This document shows, piece after piece, positions 5,112 to 10,422 of a stretch of 64,000 nt of DNA. The stretch is from Haloglomus salinum (lineage in GTDB: Archaea; Halobacteriota; Halobacteria; Halobacteriales; Haloarculaceae): positions 186,001 to 250,000 of the forward strand of contig NZ_CP101153.1 of assembly GCF_024298825.1 (NCBI RefSeq). Direction: 5' to 3'. How positions within the stretch are numbered: position 1 is the stretch's first letter; every line of letters starts with the position of its first letter. The translations under genes were made by a program, and so were the position numbers. The notes beneath the pieces are model-generated. The model made no database searches. It was not told the DNA's origin and saw only the letters and a program-made list of their open reading frames with translations.

Positions 5112-6503
5112 ATGCGTGAGGCCGACCCTCGCGAGCGGGAGATGGGGATGGAGTGGTACGTCAGCGACGCCGACGGGACCGGTGGGGAGTTGCGCTTCGC
5201 CGAGGAGGATTTCGTCGTCCGTGAGCGCGAGCGGTTCGACGTGGACCTGCATCCCGCCGACGCCGACACAGGCGCCTATCCCCACCTCGTGTTCCGCGCG
5301 ACGCTGCGTGGCTGGGACACCAACGACTTCGCGAGCGCGCTCTCGCGGAAGCTGGGGATGAGCCGCGAGCGCGTCTCCTGGGCCGGCACGAAGGACAAGC
5401 GGGCGGTGACGACGCAGCTGTTCTCCGTGCGGTACGAGGAGCGCGAGTTGCCCGAGCTGGGTGACGCCGATATCGAGGTCCTGGGCCGGGCGGGGCGGCC
5501 GGTCCTGTTCGGCGACCTCGCGGGCAACGCCTTCGAGATTCGCGTGCGGAGTGCCGACCACCCAGAGAACGCGGCTGCCATCACGGAGTCGCTCCGGGCG
5601 TTCGCGGCCGGGGTCGACACCGACGCGGGGGATGTCTCCGCGGACGACCCCGCGGGCGTGCCGAACTACTTCGGCCACCAGCGGTTCGGCTCGTATCGCC
5701 CGGTCACGCACCGCTGCGGACTCGCGGTCGTCCGGCAGGACTGGGCGGACGCGGTGATGACCTACGTCACGCAGACCGCCCCCGAGGAGCCCGCGGACAC
5801 GCGCGAGGCCCGCGAGTTCGTCGCGGAGACGCGCGACTGGAACGCGGCACTCGACCGGCTGCCCGGCAAACTCCGCTACGAGCGCGCGATGCTCCACACG
5901 CTGGCCGAGCGTGTCGGCGAGGGCGAGCCGACCGACGAGGACTGGCGGGCCGCGCTGGAGTCGCTCCCGTCGAACCTGCAGACGATGCTCGTCAACGCCG
6001 CGCAGTCGTACGCGTTCAACCTGATGCTCTCGGAGCGACTGGAACGTGGCCTCCCGTTCACGGAAGCCGTGGCGGGCGACGTGGTCTGCTTCGCCGACCG
6101 AAGCCCCGAGATTCCGGACGACGTGGCGCTCCCGGACACGGACCGCCTCCAGCGTGTCGATGCGGGCCGCGTCGACACCGTCAATCGCCACTGTGCCCGC
6201 GGCCGGGCGTTCGTCACCGCGCCGCTGGTCGGCACCGAGACGGAACTCGCCGACGGCGAGCAGGGCGACATCGAGCGCGAGGTGCTGGACGAACTGGGCC
6301 TCGAACCGGGTGACTTCGACCTGCCGGGTGCGTTCGAGTCGACCGGAACGCGGCGAGCGATACTGCTACGGACGGACCTGGACGTCGAGCGCGTCGAGGA
6401 GGCCCCCGAGTCGCTGTGGTTCCGGTTCGCGCTTCCGAAGGGGTCGTACGCGACGGTGGTGTTGCGGGAGTACCTGAAAGACGACCCACTGGCGTTGACC
6501 TAG
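5112..6503 (+). CDS. truD: tRNA pseudouridine(13) synthase TruD
   Basis: A 463-residue protein that converts U13 of tRNAs to pseudouridine. Family signatures are present: [12 protein letters not shown] near residues 91-102, containing the catalytic Asp in KDK, and [10 protein letters not shown] near 185-194, the Phe/Gly-rich active-site loop; the TruD insertion domain lies between that loop and the C-terminal catalytic half. The start at ATG 5112 ([19 protein letters not shown]) matches the usual haloarchaeal beginning MREA-PxE..xGMxxYVSD. The open frame continues upstream to 4749 but that extension overlaps the preceding gene and reads as low-complexity Arg/Pro sequence. Likely cytoplasmic housekeeping enzyme. 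Confidence 0.96.
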
Positions 6504-8360: not shown

Positions 8361-10274
8361 TCAGTCCGCCTGCGCCCCGGAAACGGTGTCCCCCTCGGTG
8401 CTCGGCTCGGCACCGTCGGCGCCGAGACGCTGCTCGGCCGCGTGGCGGCGACGTTCCGTCTCGGGGTCGAGTGCGGCGCGGGCGGCCGCCGAGAGCTTGT
8501 TCTCGACGGCGCGCCCGTTGCGTTCGCGGACGACGATGTCGTCGTCCTCGAGTTTCTGGAGGTGATGCGTCACGGTGGCTGGGGAACGGTCGACCGCCTC
8601 GGCCAGGCCGCTGACCGACGCCGGCTCCAGACGGACGAGCGCATCGAGGATATCCGCGGTACTCTCGTCGGCCATCGCCGCCGCCAGTTCGAGGTCGTCC
8701 GTGCCGGCGGGGTAGAACCGCTCGCAGTTGCGGATTCGGGCGGTCGCGACCAGCCCCTCGCGCTCGAGCACCTTCACGTGGTGGCGGGCAGTCGAGAGGT
8801 TCACGTCCGCCCGGTCGCTGACCGCCGTAATCGGCTCGCCGGGCTGGTCGCTGATGGCCTCGTAGACGTGCCGCCGCGCGTCGAGCTCCAGCGGGTCCGA
8901 GTCATCGTACCGGGAGTACCGGAACAGCGACAGCATCCGGGCGAGCCGGCCGTCGCCGGTCGCGAGTGCTGTCGAGGCGGCTCGTGCGGCCGCCGTCCCC
9001 GTCCCGGTCCCACCGACCATCGAGGTCTGCCTGGCCGCGATTCCCGCCGCACCGAGCAGTGCCGCCGTCGCCGCGCCGCCGGCCGCGGCGCCCTCGGGGG
9101 AAACCGGGAGCTCGCCGTCGAATCCGGACGGCACTGCACCAGCGGCCCTGTCGGTCGTGGCCGTGGACGTCTCGGTCCCGGACTGCTCCGTGGCCGGGGT
9201 GGCGGTGTCGAGCCGGCCCGTCCGCGCTCCCGTCGTGTCCGGCCGGTCTGCAGGGGCAGGACCGACGGGGTCCAGCTCGCCGTTCTCCCCGGCAACCGGT
9301 GTGGCCGTCACCGGGCTGGCGGTCGACGGGTCCATCGACCCCGAGTCGATGTCCGTGCTGTCGACGGCCTCCAGATCGTATCCCAGGTCCCCGACGCCGC
9401 TGCTGCTCGCCGAGAGCCGGAGCCCGTCGTCGCCGCCGATACGGAGGCCGTCGGTGAGTCCCACGGTGATGCCCTCGTCACCGCCGACCCGAATCCCCTC
9501 GCCGACCTCCGCGGTGACGCCGTCGTCGCCACCGACACTCACGCCCTCGCCGACCTCCGCGTGGATGCCGCTCTCACCGCCGACACTCACTCCCTCACTC
9601 ACCCCGACGGCGACACCGTCGTCCCCACCGACGGCGATACCGTCGCGGCCCAGGGAGATGCCCTCGCTCCCGCCGAGTGCGAGCGACCCGTTCCCGGTGC
9701 TGACCGGTGACTCGCCGACCGTCAGGCCGGAGTCCGCCTCGTACCCCTGCTCCAGAACCGTCACGCCGTCACGCCCCGCCGACAGCACGCTTCCGTTCGC
9801 GACACTCACGCCCTCACCGACCTCTGCGTGGATGCCGCTCTCACCGCCCACACTCACGCCCTCGCCGACCTCTGCGTGGATGCCGCTCTCACCGCCCACA
9901 CTCACACCCTCACCGACCTCCGCGTGGATGCCGCTCTCACCACCCACACTCACACCCTCACCGACCTCCGCGTGGATGCCGCTCTCACCGCCCACACTCA
10001 CACCCTCACCGACCTCCGCGTGGATGCCGCTCTCACCACCCACACTCACTCCGTCACCGGGTTCGAGGGCGATTCCCGAGTCGCCGCCGAGGCTCACGCC
10101 ATCCATCCCGAGGTTGATGCCCTTCGGCCCGCCGAGTTCCAGATTGGTCCCGTTCGTCGCGACGACGGTGTCGTCATCGTCGTCGGCTGCTGCGAGCGGG
10201 GCCCCCGACACGACCCCGACCAGCAGTGCGGTGGCGAGGAGGAAGTGGACTGCGGGCCGGACGGTTCGGCTCAT
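8361..10274 (-). CDS. Membrane-anchored regulator: repeat ectodomain plus two winged helices
   Basis: A 637-residue protein. It has a signal peptide (residues 1-30, ending PLAAADDDDD), then about 250 residues of Gly-rich 16-residue repeats of the form GEGVSVGGESGIHAEV, a Ser/Thr/Pro-rich linker (about 300-385), one Ala/Gly-rich membrane segment (about 388-412) and two C-terminal winged-helix domains (about 463-520, with STARHHVKVLEREGLVATAR; and 528-585, with SPATVTHHLQKLEDDDIVVRERNGR). The architecture predicts an outside sensor or structural domain and an inside DNA-binding part. The repeats have the period of a beta-roll or beta-solenoid. The target genes and the signal are unknown. No neighbour is clearly in the same operon. 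Confidence 0.8.
   Translation of the reverse strand: MSRTVRPAVHFLLATALLVGVVSGAPLAAADDDDDTVVATNGTNLELGGPKGINLGMDGVSLGGDSGIALEPGDGVSVGGESGIHAEVGEGVSVGGESGIHAEVGEGVSVGGESGIHAEVGEGVSVGGESGIHAEVGEGVSVGGESGIHAEVGEGVSVANGSVLSAGRDGVTVLEQGYEADSGLTVGESPVSTGNGSLALGGSEGISLGRDGIAVGGDDGVAVGVSEGVSVGGESGIHAEVGEGVSVGGDDGVTAEVGEGIRVGGDEGITVGLTDGLRIGGDDGLRLSASSSGVGDLGYDLEAVDSTDIDSGSMDPSTASPVTATPVAGENGELDPVGPAPADRPDTTGARTGRLDTATPATEQSGTETSTATTDRAAGAVPSGFDGELPVSPEGAAAGGAATAALLGAAGIAARQTSMVGGTGTGTAAARAASTALATGDGRLARMLSLFRYSRYDDSDPLELDARRHVYEAISDQPGEPITAVSDRADVNLSTARHHVKVLEREGLVATARIRNCERFYPAGTDDLELAAAMADESTADILDALVRLEPASVSGLAEAVDRSPATVTHHLQKLEDDDIVVRERNGRAVENKLSAAARAALDPETERRRHAAEQRLGADGAEPSTEGDTVSGAQAD
9805..10044 (-). 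repeat. Five tandem 48-bp in-frame repeats
   Basis: Five consecutive 48-bp units, nearly identical, each encoding GEGVSVGGESGIHAEV of the membrane regulator. A further near-identical unit lies at about 9541-9588, and more diverged ones fill 9420-9660. The near-identity at DNA level in one block shows recent expansion or homogenisation by recombination or slippage. Confidence 0.92.
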
Positions 10275-10422
10275 CGCTGCTGGTGATGTACTGAACGCTC
10301 ATTCACTTGAAACCCCGGCTCACATCGGCTCTGGTAGCCGGCTGCCCACGCACCGTCACGAGGGACGGTCCGAGGAGGAAGTAGCCGTCATTGATACGTC
10401 CGGGCCGAGAACCCGTCGACCA

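Follow-up and report, generated by a model that had tools for sequence, protein, structure and literature searches.

Transmembrane transcription regulators (TTRs) are an established class of proteins in both archaea and bacteria (PMC10269533). In ToxR, CadC and ArnR/ArnR1 (ArnR is described in PMC13286277), a single polypeptide combines DNA binding with membrane insertion through a helix. The DNA-binding domain of ToxR, CadC and ArnR is N-terminal, and in the ToxR/CadC type it is a winged helix followed by a C-terminal periplasmic domain. The protein considered here is encoded within a 64,000-nucleotide stretch of the Haloglomus salinum genome (hereafter the window). It resembles the TTRs in having a predicted DNA-binding domain and at least one predicted transmembrane region in the same chain, the latter recognized by hydropathy and charge pattern in spite of a weak helix. 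It departs from ToxR, CadC and ArnR in that the DNA-binding part is C-terminal and doubled, a winged-helix (wHTH) pair at aa 464-602, and in that it is preceded by an extended ectodomain of repeats and, at the N-terminus, a signal peptide.

A second point of comparison is provided by the haloarchaeal HVO_0163-type double-HTH proteins (PF24266): here the first winged helix resembles that family, with scores on either side of the curated cut-off, and a second follows. A close soluble member of this type in the same genome (G000:C1:1472385, 203 aa) has neither ectodomain nor membrane helix. The literature on HVO_0163 yielded a single passing mention, and a search of open-access papers found no description of the present architecture. 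CsmR of Haloferax was considered as a relative and set aside, the consulted part of its description containing no signal-peptide or transmembrane feature. With its C-terminal tandem winged helices, signal peptide and swapped repeat ectodomain, the window protein would be a variant within the known TTR class. With a probability of roughly 0.55, we consider it to be a type I transcription regulator that crosses the membrane once, extends a fibrous antenna at the surface, carries C-terminal tandem winged helices, and was born by gene fusion within Haloglomus. It offers a recent case that can be reconstructed, in which a one-component membrane sensor would have gained its extracellular half by fusion and both parental families are still found in the same genome. 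The features of the gene are as follows (aa, residue of the predicted protein).

8361 to 10274, minus strand: whole gene, a chimeric transmembrane winged-helix regulator of 637 aa (open reading frame, ATG start, translation)
10185 to 10274, minus strand: signal peptide, aa 1-30 (MSRTVRPAVHFLLATALLVGVVSGAPLAAA), predicted by reading the sequence
9408 to 10133, minus strand: repeat ectodomain, aa 48-289, octads forming 16-residue units (repeat pattern and the secreted paralogue L004)
9819 to 10058, minus strand: array 1, five near-identical 48-bp units, aa 73-152 (four units in the sister species)
9456 to 9599, minus strand: array 2, three diverged units, aa 226-273 (DNA identical in the sister species)
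9093 to 9407, minus strand: linker rich in Ser, Thr and Asp, aa 290-394, which holds the fusion junction
9033 to 9089, minus strand: Ala/Gly-rich predicted membrane helix, aa 396-414 (AAAGGAATAALLGAAGIAA; hydropathy, homologues)
8919 to 9032, minus strand: basic juxtamembrane segment, aa 415-452 (5 Lys/Arg against 1 Asp/Glu)
8886 to 8918, minus strand: signature YSRYDDSDPLE, aa 453-463, near-invariant in alignments A2 and A3
8682 to 8885, minus strand: winged helix 1, aa 464-531 (PF24266, structure model)
8469 to 8681, minus strand: winged helix 2, aa 532-602, ArsR/MarR-like (PF12840 at 1.9e-17, structural neighbours)
10275 to 10422, no strand: divergent intergenic region, common to a CoA-transferase-like gene, a candidate operator

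Pfam places the two winged-helix domains at aa 465-531 and 534-582, and residues 461-600, which cover both, were modeled at pLDDT 93-98. Searches with the full-length model (Foldseek and VIA) led to winged-helix proteins, and the structural neighbours of the second winged helix reached Z scores of up to 12.8. The match to PF24266 (HTH_HVO_0163_N) scored 38.4 bits for the window protein and 29.5 bits in the genome scan, against a curated cut-off of 31. A score of 59.8 bits for NF033788 (ArsR/SmtB metalloregulators; cut-off 55) is a sum over two stretches and implies no claim of metal sensing. Signal-peptide-like N-termini comparable to that of the window protein occur in nearly all homologues. 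An initial sequence-only reading had described a signal peptide, repeats, a linker, one membrane helix and two HTH domains in a single chain, and the open reading frame, the Pfam matches, the structure model and the homologues all agree with that description.

The membrane segment itself is marginal, with a mean Kyte-Doolittle value of 1.56 over the 19 residues of aa 396-414, and the structure model has a helix at residues 402-415. The segment recurs in 25 long homologues. The mean number of Lys/Arg in these is 0.72 over the 25 residues that lead up to the helix and 4.8 in the segment after it, and the share of Lys and Arg is 1.9% in the ectodomains against 10.2% between helix and motif. In haloarchaeal proteins, which as a rule are strongly acidic, this asymmetry reads as a clear positive-inside signature, by which the winged helices are assigned to the cytoplasm. 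The orientation proposed by the sequence-only reading, with an exported ectodomain and internal winged helices, is thus supported by the charge pattern across homologues. GxxxG motifs in the helix numbered 15 against 16.6 expected, which is no enrichment.

A marginal helix would also suit a protein whose weak segment does not span the membrane at all, so that the winged helices end up outside or secreted and the product is an exported DNA-binding surface protein. Certain short members of the family (L057, L059, L064, L068, L074, L075, L080, L081, L083 and L086; 240-301 aa, with the match near position 6001 of the locus in most) have a puzzling topology that lends itself to this reading: they combine signal-peptide-like N-termini and two winged helices with no clear second hydrophobic segment, and their linkers are of mixed charge (4.7% Lys/Arg and 13.4% Asp/Glu). 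The long forms, however, have the strong positive-inside pattern just described, and glycosylation sequons fall mostly within ectodomains. Furthermore, the relative L088 has neither signal peptide nor helix and keeps the same wHTH pair, which speaks for an intracellular role. An extracellular location of the winged helices is accordingly judged highly improbable.

The window protein is a chimera, with a membrane and winged-helix half from a duplicated regulator and a repeat half from a secreted family, and relatives of both halves are encoded elsewhere in the same genome. On the regulator side, the paralogue L002 is 84% identical over aa 377-626 and has an unrelated Thr/Asp-rich ectodomain, while a third regulator, L003, has one that is rich in Ser and Asp. 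On the other side, the unlinked, secreted proteins L004 and L009 share with the window protein a signal peptide and the repeat domain (56-60% identity to the window ectodomain in L004), whereas their C-terminal part, also secreted, lacks both HTH and membrane helix. That C-terminal domain is common to the two (L004 61-2283, L009 1-1803) and has no Pfam match. At the DNA level, the main matches to the L004 locus (L012) end near aa 300 and similarity to the L002 locus (L010), at 85.7% identity, begins at aa 382; the fusion junction would accordingly lie between about aa 300 and 380.

The chimera is also recent. In the phylogenetic tree its regulator module is nested among Haloglomus regulators of the L002 type (support 100/99), and the fusion is found only in the two closest species, Haloglomus salinum and Haloglomus halophilum. 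In genome G001 the flanking DUF2103 and CoA-transferase genes lie 4.8 kb apart, with other genes and no regulator between them. Matches to the repeat ectodomain were found in 3 of 391 genomes sampled at the class level, namely the present genome and, weakly, two others. We reconstruct these events as follows: within Haloglomus, a regulator gene was duplicated, its 3' part was fused to the 5' part of a gene for a secreted repeat protein, and an existing signaling module would thereby have gained a new antenna.

A tandem array with a 48-bp period was detected by TRF at 9802-10059 (5.4 copies, 95% match), and the five units of array 1 differ from one another at 1-5 of 48 bases. The only full-length orthologue found, in Haloglomus halophilum (G002), has 621 aa, is 96% identical, and is shorter by exactly one 16-residue unit: its array 1 has four units rather than five. 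For some of these units the difference between species exceeds that between neighbours within one species, as expected from repeat turnover. Two statements made earlier from the window DNA are borne out here, namely that five 48-bp units are almost identical and that ectodomain length varies, the latter at the level of sister species rather than of strains.

Low-complexity repeats that expand and contract, in a fusion known from two sister species and missing at the corresponding site of G001, could also mean that the fusion is recent and possibly dispensable, with DNA binding kept and the ectodomain reduced to a passive spacer with no sensory role. Yet the reading frame has stayed open in both species at the identity given above, and array 2 is unchanged between them. 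The 130 bp adjoining the gene are likewise identical in the sister species, against about 94% over the 5.7 kb around the gene. A passive spacer is, in our estimate, quite improbable. The protein may plausibly have the role first suggested for it, that of a one-component cell-surface sensor.

Within the repeats, octads of the form xxG(VIL)x(VLA)xx pair as 16-residue units, and nine of these units match all six positions of the triple beta-spiral consensus (hydrophobic residues at c, e, g, k and m, and Gly or Pro at j; positions from PMC3150272). The nine perfect matches fall into two runs, of five and four units, at a spacing of 16. In 5,000 shuffled sequences the pattern matched 0.26 times on average and at most 4 times, and shifted versions of the six-position pattern gave 0 or 1 match. 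The six-position pattern is thus not a product of chance.

Triple beta-spiral shafts, such as those of the adenovirus fibre and reovirus sigma-1, have the same tandem arrangement of hydrophobic c, e, g, k and m with Gly at j, and the best PDB sequence match of the repeats is an adenoviral fibre, at a weak E value of 0.075. These shafts, however, are viral trimers with a 15-residue repeat, whereas the window repeat is cellular, has 16 residues, and would be trimeric only by hypothesis. Because of this difference in repeat length, the ectodomain is not classed with the triple beta-spiral proteins, and a rod of that kind is kept as a hypothesis suggested by the repeat pattern. No Pfam fibre-shaft family was found in the ectodomain, nor any Pfam domain there or in L004 and L009 up to an E value of 10. 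The ectodomain modeled alone as a single chain reached pLDDT 48 (about 80 only within array 1), and a fold search with this model gave no significant match; with a model of this quality and that outcome, we make no statement on the novelty of the fold. A viral origin of the repeats was considered and rejected, no relative having turned up among 2.9 million viral contigs scanned. The triple beta-spiral is known mainly from viral fibres; should the repeats adopt it, this fold would serve as the stalk of a cellular regulator.

These features can be combined into a working model of the preferred reading, a type I single-pass regulator. The signal peptide would send the fibrous repeat ectodomain outside, the Ala/Gly-rich helix would cross the membrane, and the two C-terminal tandem winged helices would bind DNA from the membrane. 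The repeats may fold into a stiff beta-spiral rod, probably a trimer, extending into the S-layer or beyond it. A surface event, whether binding, tension or proteolytic clipping, would alter the association of the chains, and this in turn would change DNA binding by the winged helices. Counting against the model is that a trimeric rod would not fit the usual dimeric state of winged-helix proteins.

A possible first target of the regulator is its own divergent promoter region. The intergenic region at 10275-10422 contains an inverted repeat (10346-10375; 12 nt, 83% complementarity) and may be a reasonable place for the predicted binding. An operator shared with the paralogue was tried as a candidate and rejected, since only one common 8-mer was found, present in a single genome, where it lies on the opposite strand. 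Elsewhere in the window, a 283-aa open reading frame at 1374-2225 resembles a transposase by eye.

Homologues that share the motif and the wHTH pair occur across the haloarchaea, and their ectodomains are very different. The half consisting of helix, motif and winged helices is retained even where the ectodomain is of quite another kind. Ectodomains are freely swapped in this haloarchaeal regulator family. The range of ectodomain size is illustrated by a 1,532-aa member (L063 1939-6540), whose ectodomain exceeds 1,200 residues.

The family is also found next to genes for secreted subtilases far more often than expected by chance. Such genes adjoin related regulators in G000, G001, G002, G011 and G018 (twice), in the same direction or divergently, the Haloglomus salinum case being G000:C1:2617339-2621195. 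In all, 6 of the 13 regulators in five genomes, counted by six-frame protein searches, have a subtilase neighbour. For a genome assumed to have 4,200 genes, about ten of them for subtilases, the chance of adjacency is about 1% per regulator, and the observed count then has a rough P near 1e-9, a figure that depends on the assumed gene numbers and ignores kinship. Counted by lineage (five independent lineages of 25), P is about 4e-6, again a rough value with assumed lineage counts. Further regulators adjoining one or two subtilase genes are found at loci L053, L061, L077, L084 and L088. According to a 2018 study, the proteins that regulate the expression of halolysins had yet to be determined (PMC6085418), and the family-wide link to subtilases offers candidates for this role.

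The subtilase neighbours also bear on how a signal might reach the DNA. In regulated proteolysis, an extracellular protease would shed the ectodomain, an intramembrane protease of the rhomboid, S2P or SPP type would cut the helix, and the winged helices would be released as a soluble factor. Richness in Ala and Gly is a property associated with intramembrane cleavage, and the weak helix is unusually rich in both (Ala 35%, Gly 22%). Proteases of all three types are present in haloarchaea (PMC9263693), and the soluble relative L088 adjoins two subtilases. Against this, the window gene is not itself beside a subtilase and Ala/Gly-rich helices are common in haloarchaea; release by proteolysis is considered possible, if somewhat unlikely.

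A bolder extension of the preferred reading, a membrane-anchored regulator born by fusion, would hold that a haloarchaeal family of inverted TTRs, with C-terminal tandem winged helices, exchanges ectodomains by fusion, that its ancestral role is to control secreted subtilases or to respond to switching by them, and that the antenna of one member is a triple beta-spiral rod like that of viral fibres, the first in a cellular signaling protein. As a whole, this is a rather unlikely conjunction. Among the neighbours of the family, a divergent TetR-family gene lies upstream of the L002-type regulator (L010 4161-4817) and of a Halorarius homologue (L056 4316-5002).
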